A stretch of DNA of 64,000 bases from Aliiroseovarius pelagivivens (GTDB lineage Bacteria; Pseudomonadota; Alphaproteobacteria; Rhodobacterales; Rhodobacteraceae). The notes beneath the pieces are model-generated. The model worked only from the letters and a program-made list of their open reading frames with translations, did not search any database and was not told where the DNA came from. Position numbers and translations under genes: made by a program. Of this stretch, positions 1,689-32,714 are shown piece by piece. Every line of letters starts with the position of its first letter. Within the stretch, counting starts at the first letter, position 1. Location: positions 186,001-250,000 of the forward strand of contig NZ_OMOI01000002.1 in the NCBI RefSeq assembly GCF_900302485.1. Direction: 5' to 3'.

Positions 1689-1819
1689 TTTTCCTTCTTC
1701 TTGCTGAATACCTGATGGATTTGTCCATTGTGTCATCTGCTTCATGCTGACCTGCAGGTGGCTAAACCGCCTTGCCGGCAGCCTTTGACCGCTTCTGCCG
1801 CTGCGATATAGGTGACAGT

Positions 1820-2713: not shown

Positions 2714-2729
2714 TAAAGAACAGGGCAGC

Positions 2730-2876
2730 ATGACAGACGTCACCATAGCTTTCCGCAATGGTTGCATCTTCGACGGCACGCAGCTGTCGGAACTGATCCA
2801 CATCCCGCACGACCTCGACCGGATTGCATTTCTGGATAATTCTCCGCCACTCTTGCCCATTTCGAGACTGATATGA
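2730..2876 (+). pseudogene. Short relic resembling the N-terminus of an amidohydrolase (NagA-like?)
   Basis: A 48-codon frame starting ATG at 2730 and stopping at TGA 2874-2876. The first residues (IAFRNGCIFDGTQ) follow the pattern with which metal-dependent amidohydrolases such as N-acetylglucosamine-6-phosphate deacetylase begin. After about residue 19 the similarity to anything I know is lost and the frame soon ends, so the catalytic barrel is absent. It lies between a GlcNAc-kinase-like gene and the glycerate kinase and overlaps the latter by ATGA. The simplest reading is an internal deletion that fused the start of an old deacetylase gene to the upstream region of the kinase. A genuine small protein or leader peptide is possible. 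Confidence 0.4.
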
Positions 2877-4153: not shown

Positions 4154-4157
4154 ACTG

Positions 4158-4194
4158 ACAAAGCCGGGCGCCATCCATTGGCGCCCGGCTTTGT
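4158..4194. terminator. Bidirectional hairpin terminator between convergent genes
   Basis: A perfect 15-bp inverted repeat (ACAAAGCCGGGCGCC and its complement) around a 7-nt loop lies between the stop of the glycerate kinase at 4153 and the stop of the leftward hydrolase at 4202. The A-run on one side and T-run on the other let it work in both directions. Confidence 0.85.
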
Positions 4195-4201
4195 CGATGG
4201 G

Positions 4202-5035
4202 TCAGTCTTTGCCCAAGAAGGTCGTGATCTCGGCACCGACTTCTTCGCGCTGCGTATACATCAGCAGGTGTCCGGCAGGATACACATGCAGCTTGGCGTT
4301 TGGCAGCATGTTGGACAGCAGGATCTGATTGGTGATTGGGATCAGCCCATCAAATTTCCCTGCAATTACCAGCGTGGGCTGGGTCAACGTGCGCAGCCAC
4401 GGCAGGCTGGTCCAGTTACACATTGCCCGCACCTGCGAGAAATACCCTTCCGGGCTGGGACGAATGGCGTGCTTCGAGTACTCGCGGAATTCAGCCGGGG
4501 CGAAGATCGCCTCGCCGCCGTACATCAGGGGACCGATGAAATTACCATAAGCTTTGCTGGTAAAGCGCATCGGGAACATGATTTCGGTCAGCGCTATGGG
4601 GGTGCCCCACCAGCTGCCAACACCACCCGCGGAACAGATGGCCAACACCAGTTTCGCCACACGATCCGGGACCGTATGGGCAATCTGCTGTGCCAAGGCA
4701 CCACCCCACGAAATGCCGAGAATATCGAAGTTCTCAATCCCGACCTCGTCCAGCACCTTGAGGGTGAATTCAGCATAGTCTGGAATGGTCGAGACCCCAT
4801 CGATCATATGCGATCGGCCCGTGCCGGGCATGTCGATTGCGATCAGGCAGCGGTCGTTGATCTCGTCCAACAAGGGCAAAAGCACCTCGATGGACTGGGC
4901 AAGACCGTTACACACCAGTAGCGGCGGAAGGTCCGAATTCACGACCCGATGGAAGTAGCGGATCTTGGCGCCGTCCACCTCGATCATATGAAATTCGGAC
5001 TTGTCGATGGTATCGATCACTTCTTGAACGCCCAT
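4202..5035 (-). CDS. phaZ: Intracellular PHA depolymerase-like alpha/beta hydrolase
   Basis: A 277-residue alpha/beta hydrolase with nucleophile elbow GISWGG, an acid in GKFDGLIP and a histidine in AGHLLMY. The run ILGISWGGALAQQIAH, the LMYGG segment and the WTSLPWL segment closely follow the intracellular medium-chain-length polyhydroxyalkanoate depolymerase of pseudomonads. The gene starts inside the stop of the PHA synthase upstream (TAATG-type 1-bp overlap), so the pair is co-transcribed and probably controls polymer turnover on the granule. No signal peptide is visible. A generic carboxylesterase is the alternative, but the location beside phaC favours PhaZ. Confidence 0.82.
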   Translation of the reverse strand: MGVQEVIDTIDKSEFHMIEVDGAKIRYFHRVVNSDLPPLLVCNGLAQSIEVLLPLLDEINDRCLIAIDMPGTGRSHMIDGVSTIPDYAEFTLKVLDEVGIENFDILGISWGGALAQQIAHTVPDRVAKLVLAICSAGGVGSWWGTPIALTEIMFPMRFTSKAYGNFIGPLMYGGEAIFAPAEFREYSKHAIRPSPEGYFSQVRAMCNWTSLPWLRTLTQPTLVIAGKFDGLIPITNQILLSNMLPNAKLHVYPAGHLLMYTQREEVGAEITTFLGKD

Positions 5036-18340: not shown

Positions 18341-19375
18341 TTAACCGTAGCGGTAAGGCCGTCCAGCCTTCTGCATGTCGGAATTATACTTGCGGAAGAT
18401 CTCGACCACTTTGGCCTTGGTCGGGCTTTCGGCGGCGATCTCGTCCCAGAACTTGACGGCGGCCTCTTCGACCTGCGCCCATTCTTCGTCTGGGATGGTC
18501 GTCAGCTTCATCTTGTCGCCGTTGACCCGCAGGCTGGCTTCTCCGCCCCAATACCACCACTGGCGATAATAGTGCGACTGATCACAGCACACGCGGAACA
18601 AGGTTTGCAGGTCTTCCGGCAGCTCGTTCCAGCGATCCAAGTTGGTGAAGAACGACCCAGCCCATGCGCCCGAGATGTTGTTGGTCAGGAAATAGTCGGT
18701 CACATCAGCCCACCCAACGGTGTAGTCTTCTGTGATGCCTGACCAAGCAACGCCGTCCAGTTCGCCGGTTTGCACGGCAACCTCGATGTCTTCCCAAGGC
18801 AGTGTCACCGGGACCACGCCAAACTGGCTAAGGAACCGGCCCGCTGTCGGGAAGGTAAAGACGCGTTTGCCTTTCAGGTCGGCAAGCGAGTTGATCGGGT
18901 CTTTGGTGGCAAAGTGGCACGGGTCCCACGATCCGGCGCTGACGTGCTTGATGCCAACGGCCGAGTATTCCTCGTCCCAGATCTCGTTCAGGCCGTACTG
19001 GTTGAACAGTACCGGCACATCCAGAGAATAGCGCGAGGCAAACGGGAAATAGCCGCCAAAGACGGTCACATCCGTGGGTGACGCCATCGAATCATCATCC
19101 GACTGCACCGCATCAATCGTACCCTTTTGCATGGCGCGGAACAGCTCGCCTGTCGGGACCAACTGGTCGGCATAGAAGAGCTCGATCTGCATGCGGTCGC
19201 CGGCAATCTTGTTGAACATCGCGATTGCAGGATCAATCACATGCGCGGCAAGCGCGGGACCGGCATAGGTCTGCATCCGCCACTTAATTGTGCTTTGTGC
19301 AAGTGCGGGTGTCGCCAGTGGGGCGGCTGCCATGCCGACCCCGGCGGTGGTTAAGAACTTACGTCTCGTTGTCAT
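18341..19375 (-). CDS. TRAP transporter solute-binding protein (DctP family), Tat signal
   Basis: A 344-residue binding protein with a twin-arginine signal (TTRRKFLTT and a short hydrophobic run ending at ALAQ). The mature sequence begins IKWRMQTYAG and contains the DctP signature around LKGKRVFTFPTAGRFLSQFG, with a conserved arginine that normally pairs with a carboxylate of the ligand, and AVQTGELDGVAWSG. It resembles the 2-oxoacid/TakP-like branch in length and in the WGG segment near the end (QWWYWGGEASL). It works with the DctM and DctQ genes directly upstream. The ligand should carry a carboxylate, for example a glutamylated amine or keto acid. Confidence 0.9.
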   Translation of the reverse strand: MTTRRKFLTTAGVGMAAAPLATPALAQSTIKWRMQTYAGPALAAHVIDPAIAMFNKIAGDRMQIELFYADQLVPTGELFRAMQKGTIDAVQSDDDSMASPTDVTVFGGYFPFASRYSLDVPVLFNQYGLNEIWDEEYSAVGIKHVSAGSWDPCHFATKDPINSLADLKGKRVFTFPTAGRFLSQFGVVPVTLPWEDIEVAVQTGELDGVAWSGITEDYTVGWADVTDYFLTNNISGAWAGSFFTNLDRWNELPEDLQTLFRVCCDQSHYYRQWWYWGGEASLRVNGDKMKLTTIPDEEWAQVEEAAVKFWDEIAAESPTKAKVVEIFRKYNSDMQKAGRPYRYG

Positions 19376-19408
19376 CTTCTCTCTCCTAGTTGGTTGTTTT
19401 TATTATTG

Positions 19409-20728
19409 TTATTTTCCGTACACATAATTGGGCAGCCAAAGAGCGATTTGGGGGAAGATCATGATGATTGCCAAGGCAACTCCCATGATAAGGACGAATG
19501 GCACGATCGAACGGTAAATGTCCCCCAGCCCAATTTCTGGCGGTGCCATGGCCCTCATAAGAAACAGGTTATAGCCAAAGGGCGGCGTCATATACGCGAT
19601 CTGGGTGGTGATGGTGTAAAGCACCCCATACCAGATCAGGTCGAAGCCCAGCACTTTGACCAAGGGCACGTAAAGCGGCGCCACGATGACCAGCATCGCG
19701 GTGTCATCCAGAAACGTACCCATGATAATAAAGCTTAGCTGCATCAGGATCAAAATGACCCACGGGTTTAGCCCAAGCTGATCGGTGAACAGGTTGTCGA
19801 TGGCCTTGACCGCGCCCAGCCCGTCAAAGACAGCGCCAAAGCCCAGTGCAGCCAGAATAATCCACATGAACATGCAAGAAATCAGCAAGGTCTGCTTGGT
19901 GCAGGTCTCGAAGATGTGCCACGTCATGCGACGCTTGGCGACGGACGCGAACAAAGCCGTCAGTGCTCCGATCGCCGAGCTTTCCACCAGCGAGGTCCAG
20001 CCATTCACGAAGGGAACCATCATCGCAGCAAAGATCGCCAGTGGCAGGACACCTGCGCCCAGAAGGCGAAGCTTTTCGGCGCGCGAGACTTCGTGCGCGT
20101 CCTCCATCGCTGGTCCAAGGTGCGGTTGGAACTTACAACGCAGCCAGATGTAGACGACGAACAGCGTGGCCATCATCAGCCCCGGCAACACCCCAGCGAG
20201 CCACAGCTGCCCAACCGGTTGACGCGCGATCATCGCATAAAGCACCAGCACGACCGAGGGCGGCACAAGGATCCCCAGACTAGACCCCGCCTGAATCACC
20301 CCCGTGACCATGATCTTGTCATAGCCCCGGCGCAAAAGTTCTGGCAGCGCGATGGTGGCCCCGATGGCCATGCCCGCGACGCTCAGCCCGTTCATGGCGG
20401 ACACCAGCACCATCAAGCCGATGGTGCCTATGGCGAGGCCTCCGTTCACCGGTCCCATCCAGACGTGGAACATGCGGTATAGGTCGTCTGCCAGACGGCT
20501 TTCGCTTAGGACATACCCCATGAAGATGAACATCGGCAGGGTCAGAAGCGGATACCATTTCATCAGCTTCATCGCGGCCGAGAACGGAATGTCCTGCCCA
20601 CCCACGCCCCAAAGCGACAGCGCAGCAATCGCGCCCACGGCACCAATCGCGCCGAACACGCGCTGTCCGGTGAACAGCATCAGCATCATCGATGCGAACA
20701 TGAAAATGGCGATATATTCTTGGCTCAT
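19409..20728 (-). CDS. TRAP transporter large permease (DctM family)
   Basis: About 439 residues with some twelve predicted spans, beginning MSQEYIAIFMFASMMLMLFTGQRVFG. The family has a long membrane domain with motifs such as GYVLSESRLADDLYRMFH, GLSVAGMAIGATIALPELLRRGYDK and TGVIQAGSSLGILVPPSVVLVLYAM, all present. ATG 20728 overlaps the end of the small permease by ATGA, which fixes the start and excludes a longer frame in the same phase. It is the ion-coupled translocation subunit for the binding protein encoded downstream. Confidence 0.93.
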   Translation of the reverse strand: MSQEYIAIFMFASMMLMLFTGQRVFGAIGAVGAIAALSLWGVGGQDIPFSAAMKLMKWYPLLTLPMFIFMGYVLSESRLADDLYRMFHVWMGPVNGGLAIGTIGLMVLVSAMNGLSVAGMAIGATIALPELLRRGYDKIMVTGVIQAGSSLGILVPPSVVLVLYAMIARQPVGQLWLAGVLPGLMMATLFVVYIWLRCKFQPHLGPAMEDAHEVSRAEKLRLLGAGVLPLAIFAAMMVPFVNGWTSLVESSAIGALTALFASVAKRRMTWHIFETCTKQTLLISCMFMWIILAALGFGAVFDGLGAVKAIDNLFTDQLGLNPWVILILMQLSFIIMGTFLDDTAMLVIVAPLYVPLVKVLGFDLIWYGVLYTITTQIAYMTPPFGYNLFLMRAMAPPEIGLGDIYRSIVPFVLIMGVALAIIMIFPQIALWLPNYVYGK

Positions 20729-21309
20729 GTGCGTGTCACACCAATCTCGTTGCCGCGGATGCGGGCGATGTCTTTGAAAAGTTCGGAAATGGCCTGAAGC
20801 AGCATCAGGAAGAAGCCCAGAACCATGATGGATTTGATCGGCCAAGCATAAGGCCGCCACGCGGTCGATGATCTCTCAAGCCGCCCGATCTCCTCGGCCC
20901 CTGTGATCAGTCCCCAGAAATAGGAAAACGGCGCGTCGCCCCAATAGCCCAACGAATAGGCCGTCGATCCGACGCCACCCCAGATCAGCACACCAAGATA
21001 GATCAACAGGAAGAAGATGGTGAAGGCATCGAACCACGCTTTCTTGCGGTCGTTCCATGTGTGGTAAAACAGGTCCATCCGCACATTCGACCCCATCTGG
21101 AGCGAGTACGGCCCGCCCATGATGTAATAGGTCACCATCGCGAACTGCGCCATTTCCAAGGTCCAGAGCGACGGCAGGAAGAACGTCTTCGAGATCGAGG
21201 ACCACAACAGGATCCCCATCATCACGAACAGCCCCCACATCATCACCCGCCCGATGCGATAGTTCACAGCGTCGATGACATGTACATATCCGGTCATGAA
21301 CGCGGTCAC
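20725..21309 (-). CDS. TRAP transporter small permease (DctQ family)
   Basis: A 194-residue four-span membrane protein with the DctQ features SISKTFFLPSLWTLEMAQF, MGGPYSLQMGSNVRMDLFYHTW in the middle and a C-terminal span followed by IRGNEIG. It is slightly longer than the usual 160-180 residues. It overlaps the amidohydrolase upstream and the large permease downstream by 4 bp on each side, so the four genes are one unit. It pairs with DctM in a sodium- or proton-driven importer. Confidence 0.9.
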   Translation of the reverse strand: MTAFMTGYVHVIDAVNYRIGRVMMWGLFVMMGILLWSSISKTFFLPSLWTLEMAQFAMVTYYIMGGPYSLQMGSNVRMDLFYHTWNDRKKAWFDAFTIFFLLIYLGVLIWGGVGSTAYSLGYWGDAPFSYFWGLITGAEEIGRLERSSTAWRPYAWPIKSIMVLGFFLMLLQAISELFKDIARIRGNEIGVTRT

Positions 21310-22082
21310 GTGGTGTTCCTTTCGGTCATGGTGGCCTCGGCCACGGCGATCCAGTTCGCCAGCATCAGCGCGATGCCAGATTGCTGGTCAGCAGTCTCGA
21401 TCAGGTCGTTTCGGATTTCGATCATCACATTCGGCAACCCATACGGCACCGCATGGTGATTGAGGGTATGGGCGACGCCATCCGATGCCGCATAGGGTTC
21501 ATTCAACTGAACCTCCATCCCAAGATCCGCCGGGATCGACTGCATCATAGCGTGCGCCAGCCGGTCATCATCTCCATGCAGAATTCCGATCTGTACCGCG
21601 CGCATCTGGTCGCGATAGACAGGTGTGAAACTGTGGACGGTCACCATCATCCGAAGATACGCCCGGTGCACACCGATCTGTTCCGTAAGCATGCTTGAAA
21701 ACGGACGATAGACATGGTCCACCCTTGCGGCGCGCGCGACGTCAGACAGATCTGTATTTCCCGGTATTTCAAACACTTCGCTACGGACCGGGATAGCGTC
21801 CGGCGCGTCGGGAGGTCGATTGCAATCGTACACCAGCCGCGAAATTCCGCCATGCACAAGCACGGCATTCATCTTCTGCGCCAGCCCCTTGGCGACGGGC
21901 AACGCGCCGGGATCCCAAGCGATGTGGCGGGTCAGTATGTCGTCATCCAACCCAAGCCCCGCCAGATGCGCAGGCACCCGGTTCGTGGCGTGTTCACACA
22001 CCACGATCACCGAGGGCGCATCGGCCATCTGATCCACATGCACAGCTGGACCGAAAGTAGATTTCAACGACTGCGATTCCAT
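21306..22082 (-). CDS. N-formylglutamate amidohydrolase family protein
   Basis: About 258 residues from ATG 22082 (MESQSLKSTFGPAVHVDQM). It has the family opening SVIVVCEHATNRVPAHLAGLGL with the metal-binding EH pair, HIAWDPGA, and RLVYDCNRPPDAPDAIP. Family members hydrolyse N-formylglutamate (HutG/HutF) or related N-acyl acidic amino acids. No other histidine-utilisation gene is nearby, so here the substrate may be an N-acyl- or gamma-glutamyl-type intermediate. It is the first gene of the leftward TRAP/ligase block, divergent from RpiR. In-frame starts at 22106 (ATG) and 22187 (GTG) are possible; none has a strong ribosome site. Confidence 0.82.
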   Translation of the reverse strand: MESQSLKSTFGPAVHVDQMADAPSVIVVCEHATNRVPAHLAGLGLDDDILTRHIAWDPGALPVAKGLAQKMNAVLVHGGISRLVYDCNRPPDAPDAIPVRSEVFEIPGNTDLSDVARAARVDHVYRPFSSMLTEQIGVHRAYLRMMVTVHSFTPVYRDQMRAVQIGILHGDDDRLAHAMMQSIPADLGMEVQLNEPYAASDGVAHTLNHHAVPYGLPNVMIEIRNDLIETADQQSGIALMLANWIAVAEATMTERNTT

Positions 22083-22154
22083 CTGGAAAAAGTTCCACAG
22101 CTTCATTCGTTGTGTCAATATTTTTCCGTAACGATTTTCCCGCCCTTGATTTTC

Positions 22155-22172
22155 CTGTCGGTTTTTTGACAG
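22155..22172. promoter_or_regulatory. Inverted repeat in the rpiR divergent promoter region
   Basis: CTGTC and GACAG flank an 8-nt spacer in the gap between the leftward amidohydrolase gene and the rightward RpiR gene. Location makes it a candidate RpiR operator for both directions, but it is short and support is weak. Confidence 0.3.
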
Positions 22173-22206
22173 AATGACTAAATTCACAGCAAAAGGGTGA
22201 TGCCAC

Positions 22207-23079
22207 GTGCGCGTAACTGATCAGCTTCTACAACATCGCGAAGAGATGACCCCGTCCGAGCGGCAGCTCTTGAGCGTGCTTCTGGACGACTATCCCTTAT
22301 CCGGGCTGGGCAGCATCACCGAGCTGGCGGCGAACGCGTCGGTGTCCACCACCACGGTCGCGCGGCTTTTGCAAAAAACCGGGTTCAAGGGCTATCCGCA
22401 ATTTCAGGCCGCCCTGCGACGCGAGCTGAAAGAGATGATCTCGGACCCCGTCGCGAAACGCGATGTGTGGAAGACCGATCTGCCGGAAGAGCACATGCTG
22501 AACCGGTATTCACGACAAGCGCTTGAGAACCAGCGGCGCAGCCTGGACGAGGTCGACCCGGACGAGTTCGACGGCTTGTGCAAATTGCTGTGTGATCCAA
22601 ACCGCCGCATCTTCATCGCCGGGGGCCGCATCACCGGCACGCTGGCGCAGTATTTCTATCTGCACCTTCAGATGATCCGGCCCGACGTGCGTCTTTTGCC
22701 CTTCTCAGCATCGTGGACGCACGAGCTTTTGGACATTCGCAAGGGGGACGTACTGATCGCGCTGGATGTGCGCCGTTATGAAAACACCACGCTGGTGATC
22801 GGGCAGCTCTGCCATGAACGCGAGGCCGAGATCGTGCTGTTCACCGACCAGTGGCGATCGCCCATTCACCGGCTGGCGCGCCACACTTTCAGCGCACGTA
22901 TCGCTGTTCCATCTGCATGGGATTCCATGGCCGCGATTTTGGTCTTGCTGGAATGCGCCGTGGCCGAAGTACAGGAACGCCTTTGGGACGATGTGAAAGC
23001 GCGGACAGATGCACTGGAAGAAGCGTTTGATCGCACCAAATTGTTTCGCAAATTCGGACAAAGTAGCAGTTCTAGCTAA
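22207..23079 (+). CDS. RpiR/MurR family transcriptional regulator with SIS domain
   Basis: A 290-residue regulator starting at GTG 22207. The N-terminal HTH_6 domain (about 1-77) has the typical SITELAANASVSTTTVARLLQKTGFKGYPQFQAALRREL stretch with its recognition helix. The C-terminal SIS domain (about 110-250) includes FIAGGRITGTLAQYFYLHLQMI and LIALDVRRYENTTLVIGQLC, the sugar-phosphate-type ligand pocket. It is divergent from the large catabolic block that begins with the amidohydrolase gene, and so probably controls it; the SIS ligand would be a pathway intermediate. RpiR members of alphaproteobacteria also respond to non-sugar ligands. Confidence 0.92.
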   Translation: MRVTDQLLQHREEMTPSERQLLSVLLDDYPLSGLGSITELAANASVSTTTVARLLQKTGFKGYPQFQAALRRELKEMISDPVAKRDVWKTDLPEEHMLNRYSRQALENQRRSLDEVDPDEFDGLCKLLCDPNRRIFIAGGRITGTLAQYFYLHLQMIRPDVRLLPFSASWTHELLDIRKGDVLIALDVRRYENTTLVIGQLCHEREAEIVLFTDQWRSPIHRLARHTFSARIAVPSAWDSMAAILVLLECAVAEVQERLWDDVKARTDALEEAFDRTKLFRKFGQSSSSS

Positions 23080-23149
23080 GACTTTTCGGCATTTGAAAAC
23101 AACCACCTACGCCTTGCGCCCTTAAAACACTGCGCCAAATCTTGCCCGA

Positions 23150-23196
23150 CCCCATCTGCCCCATTTTTGCCCCAATTTTGAGAACACCCCAATTTG
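23150..23196 (+). repeat. Four direct repeats of a CCCCA-T-rich-G unit upstream of the protease cassette
   Basis: Four units read CCCCATCTG (23150), CCCCATTTTTG (23159), CCCCAATTTTG (23170) and CCCCAATTTG (23187). The first three abut exactly and the fourth follows after 6 nt. The array lies in the spacer before the first gene of the protease cassette, about 65 bp from its start. Regular 9-11-bp periodicity, close to one helical turn, suggests stacked binding of a regulator on one DNA face. No coding function is apparent here. Confidence 0.7.
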
Positions 23197-23261
23197 TGAT
23201 AGAGTGGCCGGACTAGCCTTCTAAAATTAATTGCAAATTCTGATTTGGGCCGCGGGTGCGC

Positions 23262-25448
23262 ATGTCCGATATTGATGCCAAGATAGTAAAGAAAAATGGG
23301 GTCCGAGCAGATTGGGTTGATCTGAGGGATCAGAACTATGTGCCGAACCTGGCCATCCTGAAACACGCATTGTCGATTGACCCTCAGTTGCTGACCGCCC
23401 CTGATGACGCGGGATTGCGACATCCGGTTTTCACGGTTCGACATCAGGGCGCGTCCGGGCGGTGCGTTGGGTTTGCATTAGCCAATCTGATCGACATTCA
23501 GCGACACCTGCAACGGGCCGAACGGGGTGAGCCGCCACAAAGTGGCGAAGCCCATGCCGACGACATAACCAGCGCAGACATGCTGTATCGCATGGCACAT
23601 TTCCACGATCGCTATCCATCTCTTGAAGCCATGAAGGTCGAGGCACACGAGGGCGTCCTGACCCTGCGCTCGGCGATCAAGGGGTTCTATCATCACGGTG
23701 CCTGTCTGGACTGGCCATTCCCCGATGCGCCCCCCGATGACACACGGTGGCAAAGCGACTGCTATCTGGCGGGTGGCCCGGATGCGGGGCGGCGGTTCAC
23801 CAGCGTGGCGCAAGCCCGCCATGCCCGCGACATTGGGTTGGGGGCGTATTTCCGGTTGGCCTCGGTCCTGAACCATTTTCACGCCGCACTGAACGACGCG
23901 CAGGCCGTATTGGTCAGCGCCAATGTCCACGACGGGTGGCTCCACGCCACGCCGCAGAACAGCGGGGTGATTGGTTGGCCCCCTGCGCAAGGCAAGATGG
24001 GGACGCACGCCTTTGTTCTGACCGGCTATGACCAGCACGGCTTTCACGTTCTGAACTCGTGGGGGGCGGAATGGGGTGGCTATCAGGGGCAGGCCGGGAT
24101 CGGATTGTGGAGCTATGACGACTGGGCGCGCAACGTGATTGACGGCTGGGTGCTGCGTTTGGGCGTGCCTGCCCCCGCTGCCTTTGGGGCCTCGGTGGGC
24201 GAGAAAGGCACCAAGGGTGTGATCGGCAAGATCCGCTCGGCTTCGACCCCGTGTTTCGAACTTGTCGGGCACTACATGCATCTGGACGATGGCTATCATG
24301 TTTCGACCGGATCTTATCCGTCGTTCAAAGACGGCTGGACCCGCACACATGACCACCTTGCCCCTAAGCTGGACCCCAAGGCCGCGCCGGACGACCCGCA
24401 CAAGTATCGCGGATTGCTGGTGTGGATCCCCGGCAGTTTGGAGGGCATCAAGCCCGCCTTTTCCGCCGCAGTCGCACGCAAGAACGCGATCAAGGCGATG
24501 GGGCTGTATCCCTATTCGATTTTCTGGTGCAACAGCTTCGTCGAGAAGTCTTTAGAGGTGCTGGAAAGCTTGTTCGACAGCTGCACCTCCCAAGCTGGCG
24601 AAACCGCTGAACATCTGGACGAGCTGATCGAAAACCGCGTGCGCGGCGTTGGCCGTGCCTTTTGGCGGGACATCGAGATGAGCGCCATGCGCGCGATGAA
24701 AGGCACCGGCGAGTTGCCGTTCGAACGTCATCTGGACCGAAGCTATTCTGATACCGGCGTGGTCGGGGACTTCCTGCATAGCCTTCTCGATCTGAAGGAA
24801 CAGACCGGCTGCGAGCTGCATATCGTGGCCGAAGGTGCGGGCGTTCTGATGGTGCACGAGATGCTGTCGCTGCTGAAACCCGACATGCCCCCACCCTTTT
24901 CGCGCCCCGGCGTGGATTTCCGCGAAACATGGTTCGACACGATGCATCTGGCGCATCCGGCCATCGGTTTGCCGCGCGCCCAGAATGTCCTTCTGCCCCG
25001 GATCGCGCAGATGAACGGGGCGCTGGATCCCGCGCGTCACAGCAAAAGCCGGGCGCGTGGTCCTGTGGTGCAGCCGGTCCTGCGCGCGGCCAGCGATGTT
25101 CCTGCCCGGATCTATGTCCCAACAGAAGAGCTTGAGGATCGCGTCTGCTTCGGTGCCTACGGCAAATCCGTTTTGCATCTGGTCTCGAACGCGTTCGAAG
25201 ATCGCTATCCCTTGCCGCGTGGCACCGATACACCAGATGTTGCGGCCTATCTGAAAGCACGGCCCTTTCTGGGCATGGCCAGCCTTGTCGAAAACGACGC
25301 GGCGGTTGCCAGCGGCGCGATCTTTCGCCTGAACCGCATCCACAACCAAAAGCACGATCTTGAACGCATTCAGCAGAGCGACCTGAATGCCGACCCCACC
25401 ATCACCAACAGTATTTTCGAGTGCATCAGAGGAACAAGAAACACGTGA
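23262..25448 (+). CDS. Papain-like (C1 family) cysteine protease with degenerate alpha/beta-hydrolase-like C-terminal region
   Basis: A 728-residue protein. Residues 50-310 form a papain-fold domain: Q62 and C68 in RHQGASGRCVGFALA have the oxyanion-Gln to Cys spacing of papain, H249 is in MGTHAFVLTGYD and N265 in LNSWGAEWGGYQG. The catalytic tetrad is therefore complete. Residues about 385-600 look like an alpha/beta hydrolase: a strand GLLVWIPGSLEG and a position corresponding to the nucleophile elbow, VAEGAGVL (523-527), where the serine is replaced by glycine. The last 150 residues are not recognised. There is no signal peptide or membrane span. ATG 23262 is preceded by a GTG two codons earlier. 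A 20-bp gap separates it from the next gene, so they are probably one operon. Function unknown. Confidence 0.82.
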   Translation: MSDIDAKIVKKNGVRADWVDLRDQNYVPNLAILKHALSIDPQLLTAPDDAGLRHPVFTVRHQGASGRCVGFALANLIDIQRHLQRAERGEPPQSGEAHADDITSADMLYRMAHFHDRYPSLEAMKVEAHEGVLTLRSAIKGFYHHGACLDWPFPDAPPDDTRWQSDCYLAGGPDAGRRFTSVAQARHARDIGLGAYFRLASVLNHFHAALNDAQAVLVSANVHDGWLHATPQNSGVIGWPPAQGKMGTHAFVLTGYDQHGFHVLNSWGAEWGGYQGQAGIGLWSYDDWARNVIDGWVLRLGVPAPAAFGASVGEKGTKGVIGKIRSASTPCFELVGHYMHLDDGYHVSTGSYPSFKDGWTRTHDHLAPKLDPKAAPDDPHKYRGLLVWIPGSLEGIKPAFSAAVARKNAIKAMGLYPYSIFWCNSFVEKSLEVLESLFDSCTSQAGETAEHLDELIENRVRGVGRAFWRDIEMSAMRAMKGTGELPFERHLDRSYSDTGVVGDFLHSLLDLKEQTGCELHIVAEGAGVLMVHEMLSLLKPDMPPPFSRPGVDFRETWFDTMHLAHPAIGLPRAQNVLLPRIAQMNGALDPARHSKSRARGPVVQPVLRAASDVPARIYVPTEELEDRVCFGAYGKSVLHLVSNAFEDRYPLPRGTDTPDVAAYLKARPFLGMASLVENDAAVASGAIFRLNRIHNQKHDLERIQQSDLNADPTITNSIFECIRGTRNT

Positions 25449-25468
25449 CCTGACAAAGGAGAAGACCG

Positions 25469-28400
25469 ATGGCCAGAATCTCAGTCGAACAGCTTATGTC
25501 CCAAATGGCGGATCCCAACGTCGCGGAAGAGGACTTGGCCAAATACTTCATATTGGATGAAGAACGCTCCGGTGCGTTCAACCCGATGTTTGAACTGAAC
25601 CCGAAAACGGTCGAAATCCCGGAAGGCCCGGATGCTCGGGCACGGACCGCAGCGGCTATGAACTTTTTCAACTGGGCCTCGCGTGCAAAGCGGCAAGGCA
25701 AGTTCAAGGATAAGGTCAACGCCGGATATACAGGGCCGATCATCGTGTCCGAAGGGGACAGCTGGTTCCAGTATCCGGTGCGTTTGCACGACACCATCGA
25801 TTATCTGATGAAGCCCTATGCAGTGTTTTCGCTGGGGGCTGCCGGTGATCTTTTGAAAAGAATGGCGGACAAGCAAGAGTACCTGAAAGCCTTAGAAGAA
25901 CAGAAAGGCGAGATCCTGCTGCTGTCCGGCGGCGGCAATGATCTGGTCGCCGGTGGCGCGCTTGCCTCGCATCTCGAAAAATACGATCCGGCGCTCAAGC
26001 CTGCGGACTATCTTCTGCCGTCTTTCCAAACCTTACTGGACGACGCGATCCACAATTATGGACGCATGTTCCGGGACGTCCAGCAGCACTTCCCGCATGT
26101 CAGCGTGCTGTGCCACGGCTATGACTATCCCATCCCGGATGGAGGCCGCTGGCTGGGCGCCCCGATGGAAGAACAAGAGATCCTCGACAAAAAGCTGCAA
26201 CGCGCCATCGCTGTCGAGATGATGGACGCCTTTAACCGGCGCCTGCGGCGGCTGACCCGGTCTGTGCCAAACGCCACCTATCTCGACTGTCGTGGACTGG
26301 TTAAAGACAAGCACTGGCATGACGAGCTTCACCCCGACAACACGGGCTATGCCGAGGTCGCGCGCAAGTTTCAGAAAGAGATCAAAAAGATCGAAGCCGA
26401 TCGCATCAGTCCCGCCCCGATTGTCAGCGGGCCGTTTGGTCTGGCCAGCGATTTGGAAGCAGACATTCACCCGACGCCCGTCATCGCGGGGGGGACGCCC
26501 AAGGGGATGTCCCTGCATGTGGGTCTGAACTTGGTGGACCCGGCCCATTACGATGGGTGGGACGGCAAGCTGGCGGCCTGCGAGGCCGACGCGCTGGACA
26601 TGGAAGCCTTGGCCGAAGCCGAGGGGTTCACACCCACGCGGCTTTTGACCGCTGACGCCACCCGGCAGAACGTGGTCGACCAGATCGAACAAGCCGCAGC
26701 TGAACTGAAGGCAGGCGACATGTTCCTGCTCACCGTCTCGGGCCATGGGGGGCGGGTGCCTGACTTCAATCAGGACGAAGACCATGACGGCGACGACAAG
26801 ATGGACGAGACCCTGTGCCTGTTCGATTTCCAGATCGCCGATGACGAGCTTTACATGCTGTGGACCAAGTTTCAGGCGGGCGTGCGGGTGCTGGTGGTGC
26901 CGGACACCTGCCATTCAGGCTCGATGATCCGGTTTGGTCCCGGTGCGCCAACGACCCTGTTTGGGCGCCCGATGTCACCAAACCCGAATGTACGGGCGAT
27001 GCCTTTGTATATCGAAGAGCGCGTCTGGCGCGCGAATGAAGCGGCGTATCGCGAGGCATCAAAGTCTTATAGCGCGCTCAAGGAAAGCGTGATGACCTCG
27101 CCACTGTCCAGCCCGATCCAAGCCTCGGTCCTGAATCTTGGCGCCTGCAAGGACACGCAATTTGCGATGGATGGCCCCCGGAACGGTGCCTTCACCGGCG
27201 CGCTTTTGAAGGTCTGGGCGGATGGTGCATTCAAAGGGGACTACCGTTCTTTCCGCGCTGCCATTGACGAAGAAATCGACAGCGACAGCCAGAACCCTCA
27301 ACTGTTCGAAACTCTGCTGAAAGAGCCGAACTTCGTCACGGATCGGCCCTTTACGCTACTGCCCGCGCGGGGTGGGCGCACCACTTCGATCGGAGGTCCG
27401 ACCCACGCCAGCGCCGAGGATGAAGAAGGCGACGAGAATGACCAGATCCCTGACAGCGAAGTGCGCGCGATCCTTGACGCCAAAGCGCGCGGCGCTGGGT
27501 TTCGCGACTCGACCGCCGCACTGAACTGGCCGGACTATGCGAAGTTCGACAAGTTCATGCGGTCTCTGGGTCTGAGGAACTTCTCGACCGACGAGTTTCT
27601 GATTTTGGGCGGTGGGCACAGTACGCCCGGCGGGGCCTGTCAGGGCAAGAACCTCTACCCCCCGCGCAATCTGTGGACCAACATCGCCAAGACCGCACAG
27701 GTCATCGACCATCTGCGTGATCGTCTGGGCAAACCGATTGCGATCACCAACGCCTATCGCGGGCCCGCCTATAACAAGTGCATCGGCGGCGCGACCTCAA
27801 GCCAGCACATGGCGTTCCGGGCGCTGGACTTCAAAGTCTCGGGGATGGACGCGCCGCAAGTCGCCACGGCCCTGCGCTGGCTGCGCGATAAGGAAGGGTT
27901 CTTCACAGGGGGGATCGGGCGCTACAACAGCTTCACCCATATCGATACGCGCGGTACAAACGCGACCTGGCCGCCCGCGTTTCGGGATGATGCACTGCCA
28001 AGCAAATCCCCGCTTTTGCCGAAAAAGCCCGGTGCGTCGTCGAAACCCAGCACGCCGTCAAAACCTGACAAACCTCAGACGTCTCGGATTCCGGACAAGA
28101 TCCCCGCACTGGCAGACCGGATCGCGATTCTGATCTCGACCATTCTGGCCAAGACACGGTCCGCACCGGGCGATTTCACACCGTCAGCCTTCGCCGAACC
28201 CACCACCCGGTCAGCAGGCCAGTTCGATCCAGACACCACCAGCGCAACTGCACAGCAGGCGCTTCAGTCGGCGGTAAATGCCTCGAGCGTGATCTCATTC
28301 GTCGAGAACCTAACCCCGCAGCAGAAAGAAGACGTGCTGCTGTCTACCCTCTTCGCCCAGCGCGCTGCCGATGCCGCATTCGACCCGGTGAAAGACCGCG

Positions 28401-28906
28401 CGGCTTGGTTCGTGAAATACATGGAAATGCTAAGCGTGTTGGGATGGAGCCGCGAGGCCGCCCCAGTCGAGGCCAGCCAGAAAATGAAAGGCAACGGCAG
28501 CTTTGATCAGGTCATTCTGGCCACGCTGGCGCAGGTCGCGACGGGCAACCAATTTCGCATCGTCGAAAGCGCGATCGAGGCGCTTCGTGGCCTGACGCAA
28601 GACGATGGCAAAATCAAACTTTTCGACTTCGAGACCTCATCCTCGACCGGCGGCAACTTCCAAATCGGCAGCGCCGAGGCGGCGGGTCATGTGATCAGCA
28701 TGGCCTTGGGCGCGTTCAACTTCACCTTCAAGGATCGCAAGCAGAATGTGTTGTTCGTGTCTTGGGGTAAGAATGAACTGGACTATTGGCTGTCGGCCCA
28801 GAAACTGACCCTAAGCCCGGACATCTATGCCGATGTGCGCGACATCGTACGTGACAAGCTGGCGGACACGCGCAAGGCGCTGATCGCTGACATTGACCTG
28901 GGTTGA
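25469..28906 (+). CDS. Four-module protein: SGNH hydrolase, caspase-like protease, M15 peptidase, unknown C-terminal domain
   Basis: A 1145-residue protein with four parts. (1) About 85-305: SGNH hydrolase with EGDSWF (S98), a GGGND block (N157) and DELHPDN (D285/H288). (2) About 345-630: caspase-like domain with catalytic SGHGG (H426) and DTCHSGS (C481), preceded by a metacaspase-style opening KGMSLHVGLN. An acidic insert rich in D follows the histidine. (3) About 660-840: M15-type D-Ala-D-Ala peptidase with Zn ligands H780 and D787 (SSQHMAFRALDF) and H824 (FTHIDTRG). (4) A Pro/Ser/Lys-rich linker (844-875) then an unrecognised 270-residue region. All three catalytic sites look intact. No signal peptide or span is seen. 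Ribosome site AAAGGAGAAG precedes ATG 25469. I know no described protein with this order. Confidence 0.82.
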   Translation: MARISVEQLMSQMADPNVAEEDLAKYFILDEERSGAFNPMFELNPKTVEIPEGPDARARTAAAMNFFNWASRAKRQGKFKDKVNAGYTGPIIVSEGDSWFQYPVRLHDTIDYLMKPYAVFSLGAAGDLLKRMADKQEYLKALEEQKGEILLLSGGGNDLVAGGALASHLEKYDPALKPADYLLPSFQTLLDDAIHNYGRMFRDVQQHFPHVSVLCHGYDYPIPDGGRWLGAPMEEQEILDKKLQRAIAVEMMDAFNRRLRRLTRSVPNATYLDCRGLVKDKHWHDELHPDNTGYAEVARKFQKEIKKIEADRISPAPIVSGPFGLASDLEADIHPTPVIAGGTPKGMSLHVGLNLVDPAHYDGWDGKLAACEADALDMEALAEAEGFTPTRLLTADATRQNVVDQIEQAAAELKAGDMFLLTVSGHGGRVPDFNQDEDHDGDDKMDETLCLFDFQIADDELYMLWTKFQAGVRVLVVPDTCHSGSMIRFGPGAPTTLFGRPMSPNPNVRAMPLYIEERVWRANEAAYREASKSYSALKESVMTSPLSSPIQASVLNLGACKDTQFAMDGPRNGAFTGALLKVWADGAFKGDYRSFRAAIDEEIDSDSQNPQLFETLLKEPNFVTDRPFTLLPARGGRTTSIGGPTHASAEDEEGDENDQIPDSEVRAILDAKARGAGFRDSTAALNWPDYAKFDKFMRSLGLRNFSTDEFLILGGGHSTPGGACQGKNLYPPRNLWTNIAKTAQVIDHLRDRLGKPIAITNAYRGPAYNKCIGGATSSQHMAFRALDFKVSGMDAPQVATALRWLRDKEGFFTGGIGRYNSFTHIDTRGTNATWPPAFRDDALPSKSPLLPKKPGASSKPSTPSKPDKPQTSRIPDKIPALADRIAILISTILAKTRSAPGDFTPSAFAEPTTRSAGQFDPDTTSATAQQALQSAVNASSVISFVENLTPQQKEDVLLSTLFAQRAADAAFDPVKDRAAWFVKYMEMLSVLGWSREAAPVEASQKMKGNGSFDQVILATLAQVATGNQFRIVESAIEALRGLTQDDGKIKLFDFETSSSTGGNFQIGSAEAAGHVISMALGAFNFTFKDRKQNVLFVSWGKNELDYWLSAQKLTLSPDIYADVRDIVRDKLADTRKALIADIDLG

Positions 28907-28918
28907 TCGGAGGCTGTG

Positions 28919-29974
28919 ATGACGCGAGCTTCGGACATAACCAAGCTGCAAATTGATCCGCGATATCTGCTGATCATGCTGTTGCCCGTGGTGGTACTTA
29001 TCGTGGCCGAGTATCTGCTTGGCACCTTCGGGGATACCGCGGTTCATCTTGAGGGGTTGGAGCTGAAAGATCAGTCCCAACTCATCGAGCTTAGCGCGCG
29101 TTATCGCTTTCTGGCTGCTTTGTTCTTCTTCGGAGGGGCGACAATCTCGGTCATCGCGATCTTCGTGTTCGAGCTTTATTCGCGCCACACAAGGCGGTCG
29201 ATCTTGACCACGCTGGTGGGCATATTGGGGATCATCGTGGTCTCACTCAGCTTTTCGACCTTTGAACCCGACTGGATGCCTGCAAGCTTTGAAAGCCAGG
29301 CTCTTTTGGGGGACAACCTGTTTCATGCTTTGATGATCCCAGCCGGCGTTCCGGGCTGCGATATGACAGGCGGCCTGTCCGAAAAATGCGACCAGCAGGG
29401 GGCCTATTTCGCGATGGAATACCTGTTGGATCGGGCGAACATACTGACGTCTCTGTCGGCGGGGGCCGTCATCGCGGGGATGGTACTGGCCCTGTCCAGA
29501 CCCGCAAGCATAGGGCCGTCGGCCCACCCCGACGTTGAAGCAGAAGCGCGCATCCTGAAATCCGCACAGGAAGCCACGCAACGTTATCTTTACTGCTCGG
29601 GCATTCTGCTGACGGCCGGGATGGTTCTCATGCTGTCATGGATGTCTTGGCCGGGTGACGCGATCTTGAACGATGACATGCGCAAGGCCCATGCCGAGTT
29701 GGTCAGCTCTTTGTCGATCTATCGGGGCGTCACCTATTCGGTGCTGATCCTGTCCTATTACCTGCCCGTCAGCCTGTTTCTTAAAGTCCGCATTGATGCG
29801 TTCCATGATGCGGTTGATGCTGCCGGAAAGCACGAGCTTGCAGCAGGTGTCGCGGGATTTGACATACAACGCATCGCGACGCTTGATGCCCTGAAGGCCA
29901 TCATCGCCATCGTCTCCCCTATCCTAACCGGGGCCATCGGGTCGTTCGGAAATCTATCCGGGTTCGGAGGCTAG
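28919..29974 (+). CDS. Multi-pass membrane protein of unknown family (third gene of protease cassette)
   Basis: About 351 residues with roughly seven hydrophobic spans, near 17-38, 62-85, 92-114, 180-199, 226-246, 270-290 and 325-346. The loop between spans 3 and 4 is long (about 65 residues) and holds two cysteines (PGCDM and EKCDQQ) that could form a periplasmic disulfide. A further polar loop of about 25 residues separates spans 4 and 5. I recognise no family. The gene starts 12 bp after the multi-module protein with GGAGG at 28909-28913, so it is translationally linked to it. It could be an immunity, pore, anchor or export component for the two enzymes; the sequence does not decide. Confidence 0.8.
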   Translation: MTRASDITKLQIDPRYLLIMLLPVVVLIVAEYLLGTFGDTAVHLEGLELKDQSQLIELSARYRFLAALFFFGGATISVIAIFVFELYSRHTRRSILTTLVGILGIIVVSLSFSTFEPDWMPASFESQALLGDNLFHALMIPAGVPGCDMTGGLSEKCDQQGAYFAMEYLLDRANILTSLSAGAVIAGMVLALSRPASIGPSAHPDVEAEARILKSAQEATQRYLYCSGILLTAGMVLMLSWMSWPGDAILNDDMRKAHAELVSSLSIYRGVTYSVLILSYYLPVSLFLKVRIDAFHDAVDAAGKHELAAGVAGFDIQRIATLDALKAIIAIVSPILTGAIGSFGNLSGFGG

Positions 29975-30078
29975 GCCACGCTGATTTGTCCATCGCAGTC
30001 TTAGTCTGAAGCGTCACCAAGCTGGCCGCCCTCAACCTTTGCGCTAGTTTACGCCGGGTCGTCGCGTTTTCGCTAGAT

Positions 30079-30092
30079 TTTTGGATCCAAAA
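30079..30092. promoter_or_regulatory. Perfect 14-bp palindrome TTTTGGATCCAAAA, candidate operator
   Basis: A perfect palindrome in the 545-bp gap before the hydroxyproline genes. Its symmetry and the central GGATCC resemble operators of FadR-type GntR regulators that control hydroxyproline and related catabolic genes. No GntR gene is in the window, so the regulator would be encoded elsewhere. The distance to the epimerase start is about 430 bp, with a possible small gene between. Confidence 0.5.
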
Positions 30093-30149
30093 TACATTAG
30101 GCTCATCTCACCACTCGCGGACAACCGGCCTTCTATCGAACAGTCGTCA

Positions 30150-30512
30150 ATGAAACAGGACATTTCATACAATGGAGAGCTCTCCCCTTTGGCCCCGCAT
30201 CATGTGGTGCTCCAAGGGATTGCTGGCGCATGTGACAACACGCGCAACATATCAATCCATCAAGAAGAATGCGCCGTGCCGTCCACCCCATGGACACGGC
30301 AAAACAGTTTCAATGACGCACTTAAACTGGAAGGTGTTGAGCGCATCTCGAATGCAGGTCTGCGCGTCGAAGGTTACTTCGATGCCCTCGACTCAGATCC
30401 GGCCGTCGCCCATGCGATTTTCGCACACAAAGTGGGCGCGGCCGGACTGGCGGAACTTCGAAATCAGGCGCCAAACGGCCGCTTGATTGTTTCCACTGAA
30501 ATTCTGGGATGA
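30150..30512 (+). CDS. Hypothetical small protein upstream of hydroxyproline epimerase
   Basis: A 120-residue frame starting MKQDISYNGELSPLAP and ending seven bases before the epimerase start. I do not recognise it. The second half (DALKLEGVERISNAGLR onwards) has codon use and composition close to real genes of the window, while the first half is ordinary. There is no clear ribosome site before ATG 30150. Another overlapping frame of about 100 codons (30172-30486) looks less protein-like because it is rich in W, M and R. It could be a real small gene co-transcribed with the epimerase, or a decayed remnant. The rest of the 29975-30518 gap holds only the palindrome at 30079. Confidence 0.35.
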   Translation: MKQDISYNGELSPLAPHHVVLQGIAGACDNTRNISIHQEECAVPSTPWTRQNSFNDALKLEGVERISNAGLRVEGYFDALDSDPAVAHAIFAHKVGAAGLAELRNQAPNGRLIVSTEILG

Positions 30513-30518
30513 ACGGTC

Positions 30519-31451
30519 ATGGATATTATCGATAGCCACACGGGCGGCGAACCCACGCGTGTCATCCTAAACGGTGGCCCTGATCTGGGCTCTGGCCCCT
30601 TGGCCCGGCGCGCCCAGACGCTGGCGGAGGAATACGAAGATTTCTATCTGTCTGTGATGCTAGAGCCACGCGGCCAGCCAGCCATGGTTGGCGCGCTGCT
30701 GGTCGAACCGGTGGACCCGACATGTGTCACCGGCGTGATCTATTTCGACGCGGGTGCGGTGATTGGCATGTGCGGGCACGGCACGATCGGGTTGGCCGTC
30801 ACGCTTTTTCACCTTGGGCGGATCGGGCTTGGCACCCATCGCATCGAGACCCCCGTTGGCGTGGTCGAAGTTCTGCTGTCCGACCCCAACACCGTCACCG
30901 TTACCAACATTGAAAGCCGCCGTGTGCACGCGGGCGTCTCGTTTGATGTGCCGGGGCTTGGGCACGTGACCGGGGACGTCGCCTATGGCGGCAATTGGTT
31001 CTTCATCCTTGACCCCACGCCCCTGCCCGTCGCCCCAAACAACATCCGCGCCCTGACAGATGCGGCCATCGCCATCCGCGACACCGCAAATGCACAGGGC
31101 ATCGGCGGCGAAGGGGGCGAGCCGATTGACCACGTGATCTTCCAAGACGCCTCGCCCAATCCGGACATGCACAGCCGGAACTTCGTGCTCTGCCCCGATG
31201 ATGCCTATGACCGCTCACCCTGCGGAACCGGAAGCTCGGCGCGGCTGGCCTGTCTGATCGCCGATGGTCGGCTGAAGTTCGGGGAAGAGATCACGCAGGA
31301 AAGCGTCATTGGTAGCCCCTATCGTCTGTCCTGTACGCCGGGACCGAACGGGGGCGTCATCCCCTCCATCACTGGTCAAGCTTTTGTCATGGCGGAAGGT
31401 CGATTGATCTTTGACGCTACCGATCCTTTCAGGAATGGTATCCGCACCTGA
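30519..31451 (+). CDS. Proline racemase family, 4-hydroxyproline 2-epimerase-like
   Basis: A 310-residue protein of the proline racemase family. Both catalytic cysteines are present: the first in MCGHGTIG and the second in SPCGTGSSARLACL. Two cysteines point to a racemase or epimerase, because trans-3-hydroxyproline dehydratases carry Thr or Ser at one of these sites. The opening IDSHTGGEPTRVI is also typical. It would convert trans-4-hydroxy-L-proline to cis-4-hydroxy-D-proline, the substrate for the D-amino-acid dehydrogenase encoded 24 bp downstream. The later dehydratase, deaminase and ketoglutarate-semialdehyde dehydrogenase are not in the window. A proline racemase cannot be excluded. 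Confidence 0.88.
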   Translation: MDIIDSHTGGEPTRVILNGGPDLGSGPLARRAQTLAEEYEDFYLSVMLEPRGQPAMVGALLVEPVDPTCVTGVIYFDAGAVIGMCGHGTIGLAVTLFHLGRIGLGTHRIETPVGVVEVLLSDPNTVTVTNIESRRVHAGVSFDVPGLGHVTGDVAYGGNWFFILDPTPLPVAPNNIRALTDAAIAIRDTANAQGIGGEGGEPIDHVIFQDASPNPDMHSRNFVLCPDDAYDRSPCGTGSSARLACLIADGRLKFGEEITQESVIGSPYRLSCTPGPNGGVIPSITGQAFVMAEGRLIFDATDPFRNGIRT

Positions 31452-31475
31452 TCCACTTTTCCCTCAAGGTCCAAG

Positions 31476-32714
31476 ATGTCTAACGAAATCACAATCATCG
31501 GTGCCGGTATCATCGGCGTCAGCATCGGGTTGGAACTGGCCCGCCGCGGCCAGAAAGTGCGCGTTCTGGACCGCAAGGGCGTCGCGGGCGAGACCTCGGC
31601 CGGGAATGCGGGTGCCTTTGCGTTTCAGGAAATCGAGCCGCTGGCCACCCCCGGCATCATGAAGAAAGCCCCCAAGTGGCTGATGGACCCGCTTGGGCCG
31701 TTGTCGATCCCGCCGGCCTATGCCGCACAGATCACGCCGTGGATGCTGCGGTTTTGGCGGGCCAGTTGGCGCGACCGCTACGAAGACTCGATGAAGGCGC
31801 AGGCCGAATTGATGCACGTGGCGAAGACGGCGTTTGAACGGCAGGTCGAGCGTATCAAGCGCGAAGACCTGATCCAGCGCAAAGGACAGATGGCGCTCTA
31901 TGAAGGCGAGAAGGCCTATCGCGCTACCCTACCCGCGTGGGAGCTGAAGAAACAGCACGGCTTTGATGCCATCCACCTGACCAGCCCAGAGGCGATTGCC
32001 GAGTATCAGCCGGGCCTGCACCCGCGGTTCACCCACGGTGCATTCACCCCCAATTGGTTCAACACCGTGGACCCGAAACTGTGGACAGAGACCGTCGCTC
32101 AGGCGCTGCGCGACGCGGGCGGCGAAATCCAGATCACCACGGTCAAGAACATCCTGCCCACGGAAACCGGGGTGCGGATCGACACGGACGACGGGCCGAT
32201 TGAAACCTCGAAACTGATCATCGCGGCGGGGGCGTGGTCTCACCAATTGGCACGCCTTCTGGGCGACAAGATCCCGCTGGAAACCGAGCGCGGTTACAAC
32301 ACCACCCTGCCCCCCGGCGCGTTTGACCTGCGGACCCATCTGACCTTCAGCCAGCACGGCTTTGTCGCCTCGGGTATCAACGGCGGCGTGCGCATCGGTG
32401 GCGCGGTCGAGCTGGGCGGCTTGAAGCTGCCGCCGAACTACAAGCGCGCAGATGTCTTGCTGAAGAAAGCGCAAGCGTTCATGCCCGGCCTGAACACAGA
32501 CGGCGGCACGCAGTGGATGGGATACCGCCCGTCGCTGCCCGACAGCCTGCCGGTGATCGGCGCCTCGCCCAAGGATCCGCGGGTGCTTTACGCATTCGGC
32601 CACGGCCATCTGGGCCTGACGCAATCAGCAGGCACGGCCGAGTTGGTCGCGGCTCTGATCTTTGGGGAAACGCCGGGGCTGACACTGGACCCGTTCGCAC
32701 CGACGCGGTTCTGA
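31476..32714 (+). CDS. FAD-dependent D-amino-acid dehydrogenase (DadA-like; probable D-hydroxyproline dehydrogenase)
   Basis: A 412-residue flavoprotein of the DAO/DadA family with the dinucleotide motif [28 protein letters not shown] at the N-terminus, a [18 protein letters not shown] segment, a second FAD motif in [30 protein letters not shown], and the closing [22 protein letters not shown]. It is likely to oxidise cis-4-hydroxy-D-proline to the pyrroline carboxylate and pass electrons to the membrane chain, given its location next to the epimerase. General D-amino-acid dehydrogenase is the alternative. It follows the epimerase by 24 bp on the same strand. Confidence 0.9.

Follow-up and report, generated by a model that had tools for sequence, protein, structure and literature searches.

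The 64,000-nucleotide stretch of Aliiroseovarius pelagivivens DNA analysed here (G000:C2:186001-250000, hereafter the window) carries three closely spaced genes, designated A, B and C, that could well form a self-contained, protease-gated lysis cassette acting on its own cell, a gasdermin system and a holin-endolysin pair combined. We propose protease-gated self-lysis because a single chain joins a caspase to a predicted membrane-active domain, presumed latent, and to an endolysin-like one, with a papain-like partner alongside, which is the logic of gasdermin operons. Protease-gated cell death is already known as a kind of system; what is unusual here is the predicted pore fold, and the cassette is reminiscent of gasdermin-driven cell death in animals and bacteria, though built from different parts. 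The original prediction, made from the sequence alone, listed four hydrolase modules (papain, SGNH, caspase and M15) with intact catalytic residues. These residues are indeed kept in our alignments, but the domain list was incomplete: it overlooked a lipase-like fold in A (amino acids (aa) 309-730) and a Cyt-like fold in B (aa ~930-1145). With the Cyt-like fold, which falls outside the four activities counted, the cassette can be read most coherently. Genes and domains are located in the window as follows.

23256 (GTG; ATG at 23262)-25448, plus strand: gene A, 730 aa (728 from the ATG), papain-like C1 peptidase and alpha/beta-hydrolase-like domain
23283..24179, plus strand: papain-like domain of A, aa 10-308; Q64, C70, H251, N267
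24180..25445, plus strand: lipase-like alpha/beta-hydrolase fold of A, aa 309-730; elbow motif E/D-G-A-G, without a Ser in the nucleophile position
25469-28906, plus strand: gene B, 1145 aa, SGNH - caspase - M15 - Cyt-like
25469..26488, plus strand: SGNH hydrolase of B, aa 1-340; S98, N157, D285, H288
26501..27388, plus strand: caspase/orthocaspase (C14) of B, aa 345-640; H426, D479, C481
27551..28018, plus strand: M15 peptidoglycan peptidase of B, endolysin-like, aa 695-850; H780, D787, H824
28208..28210, plus strand: Arg914 codon of B, candidate cleavage site, near-invariant within a variable linker
28256..28903, plus strand: predicted Cyt/volvatoxin-fold domain of B, aa ~930-1145
28916 (GTG; ATG at 28919)-29974, plus strand: gene C, 352/351 aa, polytopic membrane protein without a Pfam family, lineage-specific member

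Domain composition of A and B

Structure comparison matched aa ~930-1145 of B to the Cyt / volvatoxin A2 / Evf fold at no more than 17% identity in the structural alignments, and we assign a Cyt-like fold to this region with moderate confidence. Two profile searches returned a sole, weak PDB match (E 0.014 and 0.031), and a single-sequence PDB search gave no Cyt match; an annexin found in that search (E 0.13) was judged a chance match. Pfam yielded no consistent family for the Cyt-like group, the matches being to 11 families, each in one of 21 members, with Hydro_N_hd the best at 7e-4. Gasdermin did not appear in the fold list for the domain, for which the 1000 top-ranked Foldseek chains were aligned, nor among the Pfam matches of A, B and C, although the Cyt fold match is no formal exclusion of it.

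The linker between the M15 domain and the Cyt-like core varies in length and sequence, yet in a local alignment of 69 sequences Arg occupies position 914 in all 62 that are not gapped there (7 gaps); by global alignment it does so in 59/69. The position falls in a stretch before the core with a predicted local distance difference test score (pLDDT) below 50 (model residues 9-31, aa 898-920). Arg884 is also conserved (65/69). Orthocaspases cleave after positively charged residues (PMC6426788), and our guess is that Arg914 is a candidate cleavage site. Apart from the fold, the likeness to the Cyt / volvatoxin A2 / Evf group lies in this disordered, Arg-bearing stretch before the core, the place at which Cyt protoxins, too, carry an N-terminal piece that is removable. 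The domain differs from that group in its low identity and in being fused to or beside enzymes, and its pore formation is a prediction.

The remaining domains of B, Lipase_GDSL_2, Peptidase_C14 and Peptidase_M15_3, each exceeded the Pfam cut-off. S98, N157, D285 and H288 of the SGNH domain and H426 and C481 of the caspase were kept in 120/120 aligned sequences, as was D479, giving the caspase His-Cys dyad and a DxCHSG motif. Its sequence places the caspase in the caspase superfamily, orthocaspase type, the nearest solved structure being 3bij (GSU0716; E 5e-72). In the M15 domain (Pfam E 4.4e-21; endolysin family phrog_894 E 9.2e-25), H780, D787 and H824, the zinc ligands in this family, were kept in 69/69 sequences.

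The N-terminal half of A is a papain-like C1 domain by its matches to PDB 3ois (E 1.3e-7) and phrog_16701 (E 1.5e-10), the Pfam C1 match reaching 13.4 bits, under the cut-off of 20.7. Q64 and C70 were kept in 116/117 aligned sequences (the remaining one has a gap) and H251 and N267 in 117/117. The C-terminal half had no match in a PDB sequence search and was placed by fold comparison alone. At its elbow the nucleophile place, position 527, is Gly in 116 and Ala in one of the 117 sequences, with Ser at the next position in seven; an active alpha/beta hydrolase was rejected for this half, the elbow having no Ser, Cys or Asp nucleophile. By a plain hydropathy score neither A nor B has a signal-peptide-like N-terminus, in agreement with the earlier statement that the two soluble proteins bear no export signal.

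We propose that B would be held latent in the cytoplasm and that A would sense a trigger, its pseudo-lipase half perhaps binding a ligand or membrane lipid and C perhaps anchoring it in Aliiroseovarius. Papain and/or caspase activity would then cleave B in the linker around Arg914; the caspase and papain may be cognate to the pore domain. The released Cyt-like domain would perforate the inner membrane, the M15 domain would reach and cut the wall, the SGNH domain would attack lipids or other acyl groups, and the cell would burst.

Linkage of the genes and presence of the cassette

Of 378 confirmed loci the best 80 were kept in one selection, and linkage counts lean to close relatives because of it. 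Gene calls in these loci are plain picks of open reading frames (ORFs), some of which are surely wrong among high-GC neighbours. Sixty-six rows carried SGNH plus caspase, and 61 were usable, having enough upstream sequence or a detected A. A lay upstream on the same strand in 46/61 (as a fragment only in L033) and was fused to SGNH-caspase in L022 (1792 aa), as also in P0084 and P0087; removal of L100 and L103, duplicates of L017 and L048, changes the raw count of 47/61 to 45/59. The 14/61 loci without A are mostly beta- and gammaproteobacterial, with two Rhizobium loci. All M15-bearing B found (32 rows, 30 distinct) were accompanied by A. Distances between A and B correlate (r 0.94, n=44), as expected for any linked pair, and no proof is drawn from this. 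In a draw of 248 genomes from the family, A occurred in seven, five of which had an SGNH-caspase B, adjoining A each time; in a draw of 385 genomes from the class it occurred in 11, the window included, its neighbours in L119 being an SGNH fusion plus a haem peroxidase gene and in L120 and L121 a lone SGNH gene. Of the conserved trio that had been proposed, A and B thus hold together, adjacent or fused, across distant Alphaproteobacteria, but C is not part of the general unit.

C adjoins B in 13 of the 61 usable loci, all from the Aliiroseovarius clade. Four other genomes of the family have a match to C, where it sits beside an ABC-transporter ATPase (three) or HflX (one, the weakest match) and not beside A or B; as a conserved component it was therefore rejected. 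A plain hydropathy count gives C six hydrophobic spans, one fewer than the seven originally assigned.

The tight packing reported earlier was borne out by the ORF list: all three genes are on the plus strand, with gaps of 20 bp between A and B and 12 bp between B and C (9 bp from the GTG). In eleven other clade loci the A-B gap is 15-27 bases, barring one ORF pick with an extended start, and five of these loci show a 4-base overlap between B and C. Because of these small gaps and overlaps co-transcription is likely, and A, B and C are probably one transcript. Ratios of non-synonymous to synonymous substitution (dN/dS) were 0.05-0.11 for the three genes (nine comparisons with three relatives, dS being near saturation for L041), and all three look to be under purifying selection.

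Two further features concern the cassette as a whole:

23178..23205, plus strand: weak promoter-like site upstream of A (4 in the region against 2.3 expected)
23070..30066, no strand: block of 6,997 bp holding the whole cassette, with 144 bp in its stead in the congener G657

The closest named loci are from Aliiroseovarius, in which A occurs in 16/21 genomes (one of the five without it is 87% complete). In a blastn comparison with G657 (L139, reverse complement), positions 1-4340 matched window 18728-23069 (86%) and positions 4485-4871 matched window 30067-30457 (72.5%). Because these flank matches lie only 144 bp apart, the 6,997 bp with A, B and C are either wholly there or wholly missing. 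The match on the right side spans just 393 bp and has diverged (72.5%); next to it a further ~840 bp (window 30458-31297), comprising most of the gene that directly follows the cassette, are missing from G657, so that the site has changed more than once. The regulator and the later genes lie close together there, with most of the racemase-like ORF missing. Eight other clade loci comprised four with the flanks of the window and four matching the cassette only, one of the latter having a second match, inverted, far away in the window. The expectation of varied genomic places was thus upheld: within the clade the cassette is found at two or more chromosomal sites, and it is a discrete block absent from one congener. 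At the insert ends the longest shared direct word is 12 bases, no inverted word of at least nine was found, and GC is 0.594 in the insert against 0.593 in the remaining window; since there are neither long terminal repeats nor a shift in base composition, we claim no element type or recent import. In the window the flanks hold an SIS/RpiR-type regulator (22207-23079) and, assigned by eye, proline racemase-like and DadA-like ORFs (30519-32714); a Pfam scan of three flanking ORFs detected no defence gene.

Scans of viral contigs with A and with B gave no relative. B matched 318 phage records, none covering 80% of it, and among 20 listed 19 matched on the M15 part and one on the caspase part; a phage or prophage cassette was rejected. 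Relatives of B domains, single-domain matches included, were found on 94 plasmid records, 57 of them conjugative.

Purpose, rival explanations and known systems

The most likely purpose of the proposed self-lysis is abortive defence against phage or plasmids, because some relatives of the modules adjoin TIR, CHAT, STAND-like or KAP genes. Several observations weigh against self-lysis as we describe it. The model of the Cyt-like domain is moderately confident with weak sequence support, Arg914 as the cut was chosen by its conservation, and no sensor was identified within the window cassette, which sits between the SIS/RpiR-type regulator and metabolic genes. M15 is absent from 34/66 SGNH-caspase rows, so the union of pore former and wall cutter in a single chain cannot explain all of them unless partners act in trans. 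Seven of the 11 class-draw genomes with A (L122-L128) have no SGNH in the fetched region, so that A has a wider life than the cassette and may have another role. Finally, although by the plain hydropathy score the wall-acting enzymes checked among relatives (0.42-1.45) lack the kind of N-terminus that two solute-binding proteins have (2.77 and 2.84), some companions score in between (chitosanase 1.45, peptidoglycan-binding/CHAP protein 1.25, C1 of L104 1.68).

The original prediction had left self-damage and delivery by a specialised secretion route side by side. A and B might be a delivered or released antibacterial weapon, attacking competitors with a joint set of lipase, wall peptidase, proteases and pore former: the enzyme mix, directed at wall, lipid and protein and in relatives also nucleic acid, is of the interbacterial toxin type, and a Rap1a/Tai-type immunity gene is annotated near L105. 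VipB, the sheath gene of the type VI secretion system (T6SS), occurs in 9/34 genomes carrying A and/or B (two of the 34 are probably repeats) but is absent from the window genome (99.96% complete) and 24 others, and T6SS dependence was rejected; extracellular contractile injection systems and type I and IV secretion systems were not searched for. Moreover, A and B have no recognisable export signal, the window cassette shows no evident immunity gene, and some relatives have TIR/CHAT/STAND neighbours, which suggest an inward target. Because VipB is mostly absent and some relatives lie near TIR, CHAT, STAND or KAP genes, self-damage is a better fit than delivery by the T6SS, and we consider a weapon unlikely. 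Enzymes for nutrient acquisition or envelope remodelling, secreted via an unrecognised route, are highly improbable. Several of the domain families usually work outside the cell and the cassette lies here amid catabolic-looking genes, but it occupies other sites in other clade members, lacks a signal-peptide-like N-terminus, and combines a Cyt-like fold, a homologue of which lies with TIR/CHAT genes, with an invariant caspase dyad, which would be odd for such a role.

Lysis could also be altruistic or developmental rather than defensive, releasing a gene transfer agent or other cargo. This is a live, if quite unlikely, alternative because gene-transfer-agent lysis in Caulobacter depends on LypABC, a set that resembles CARD-NLR systems and includes trypsin and trypsin-endonuclease proteins; the authors of that work likewise report no association of lypABC with known immunity genes (PMC13236601). 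Both would be protease-driven lysis in Alphaproteobacteria, and the SGNH relative of L077 adjoins a trypsin-endonuclease gene of LypC make-up (PMC13236601). The cassette differs in having a caspase and a papain instead of trypsin and no recognised CARD, and membership was rejected, no NTPase (nucleoside triphosphatase) family being found by Pfam in A, B, C or three flanking ORFs. Gene transfer agents are widespread in Rhodobacterales, against which stands the patchiness of the cassette, with A in only the above fractions of the family (7/248) and genus (16/21).

Returning to protease-gated self-lysis, the closest comparison is with bacterial gasdermin operons, in which caspase-like genes lie nearby, cleavage follows Leu or Arg, and lysozyme/amidase genes occur now and then (PMC9612521). 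The two have in common a caspase-family protease with a predicted latent pore-forming domain, and a wall-cutting enzyme, no recognisable export signals and a candidate cut at a basic residue (PMC9612521). A protease in the same operon is present twice over, as the caspase in B and the papain in A, both with conserved active sites. Differences are the Cyt/volvatoxin fold, the union of pore, caspase, wall peptidase and SGNH in one chain, the papain partner, and a defence role that is putative. Caspase-nuclease (Canu) pairs, described in 2025, are likewise small operons with a caspase-family protease and a likely latent effector (PMC12799240), but the effector here is pore, wall peptidase and SGNH, and Canu was rejected, the Pfam matches of A, B and C including no metallo-beta-lactamase nuclease family. 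The caspase-alpha/beta-hydrolase pairs of VMAP ternary systems, noted in 2020, similarly place an alpha/beta-hydrolase gene next to a caspase gene (PMC7159879); the hydrolase fold of A, however, has no nucleophile and forms one protein with papain, and A, B and C gave no VMAP, MoxR or vWA family in Pfam. A caspase-amidase-GDSL protein of Chitinophaga pinensis, an isolated published example noted in 2012, unites a caspase, a wall hydrolase and a GDSL/SGNH module in a single chain, with Amidase_2 instead of M15 and, in the passages available, no mention of a Cyt-like domain or papain partner (PMC3501461).

No system-specific PADLOC (2023) model matched; a generic caspase model alone hit B (30.2 bits), and A and C had no match at E up to 1, so membership of the known PADLOC defence systems was rejected. 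The EACC1-caspase two-gene system was likewise rejected (NF047832 scored 24.1 bits, its cut-off being 140). Neither an A-B-C operon nor a Cyt-like domain in a bacterial death system was found described in the partially covered literature, within which the earlier claim of an undescribed operon holds.

More tentatively, the Cyt/volvatoxin fold, known from extracellular toxins, might here replace gasdermin as an intracellular, protease-gated death effector, with pore former, endolysin-like cutter, SGNH and activating caspase in one chain and a papain/pseudo-lipase trigger making a minimal self-sufficient 'pyroptosome'. It would belong to a large family of cytoplasmic death enzymes whose modules are reshuffled (SGNH with caspase/trypsin and nuclease/phospholipase/peroxidase/amidase). 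If so, this would be a second pore-forming fold for protease-gated bacterial cell death, would tie caspase and papain proteases to a single death effector, and would put pore formation and wall cutting into one gated protein, a 'holin-endolysin mimicry' so far suggested for gasdermin operons (PMC9612521). C70 of A and C481, R914 and H780 of B would be testable residues, and the related operons, several on conjugative rhizobial plasmids, a hunting ground for new immune systems.

Gene neighbourhoods of related modules

The neighbourhoods of relatives are examples, not a controlled enrichment. The SGNH module is fused to Trypsin_2 (L065, L073), to Trypsin_2 and an EEP nuclease (L062), to Trypsin_2 and Endonuclease_NS (L092, L102; in a neighbouring gene in L077) and to Amidase_3 and M15 (L089; in a neighbouring gene in L080). 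Near SGNH genes lie S8 and lipase_3 (L078), S8 and ATP-grasp (L029), AAA/STAND-like (L069) and An_peroxidase genes (L036, L086, L098); a KAP NTPase adjoins a split A in L101, and in L037 a Cyt-like gene stands directly upstream of an SGNH-caspase gene without a Cyt-like domain. Annotated plasmid regions pair C1-caspase with SUMF1 and TIGR02594, a caspase with chitosanase, L,D-transpeptidase and C25 peptidase, a caspase with a peptidoglycan-binding/CHAP protein, and Cyt-like, SGNH-amidase-M15 and trypsin genes with an adjoining 'ABC-three component system'.

On Rhizobium leguminosarum plasmid pRL31b3 (L130:4463-13369), a CHAT protease, a small protein (205 aa), a stand-alone Cyt-like protein and a TIR protein are encoded in a row with a further TIR gene upstream; the final TIR protein matches PADLOC ThsB models, and the row is likely an undescribed immune operon. 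Rhizobium etli pRetIE4803d (L133:6779-16325) has consecutive SGNH-amidase-M15, trypsin, trypsin/phospholipase D and patatin genes. Animal haem peroxidase genes beside papain/SGNH genes (L036:6018-7991, L098:6415-8400, L086:5586-7538 and, by similarity to L086, L119:5816-7717) may encode an oxidant-making effector; the three checked had no signal-peptide-like N-terminus. Chitosanase, L,D-transpeptidase and peptidoglycan-binding/CHAP genes, without clear signal peptides, lie directly 3' of SGNH-caspase in L105:10935-12681 and L109:1728-2411, and a membrane protein of ~630 aa with multiple spans, paired with a solute-binding protein that bears a signal peptide, recurs beside SGNH-caspase (L105:5261-8212, L109:2567-5427); the two are possibly a sensor pair. 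In L077:3421-13476, two genes (1374 and 352 aa), a large pair with relatives in the AAA/STAND-like pair of L069, run divergently to the SGNH gene and the trypsin-endonuclease gene of LypC make-up. Vibrio parahaemolyticus plasmid p2 (L108:7851-8681) has a stand-alone Cyt-like homologue with no protease gene annotated nearby, and in L087:8862-16843 a Cyt-like gene is divergent from a 2392-aa ORF without a Pfam match at E 0.01.

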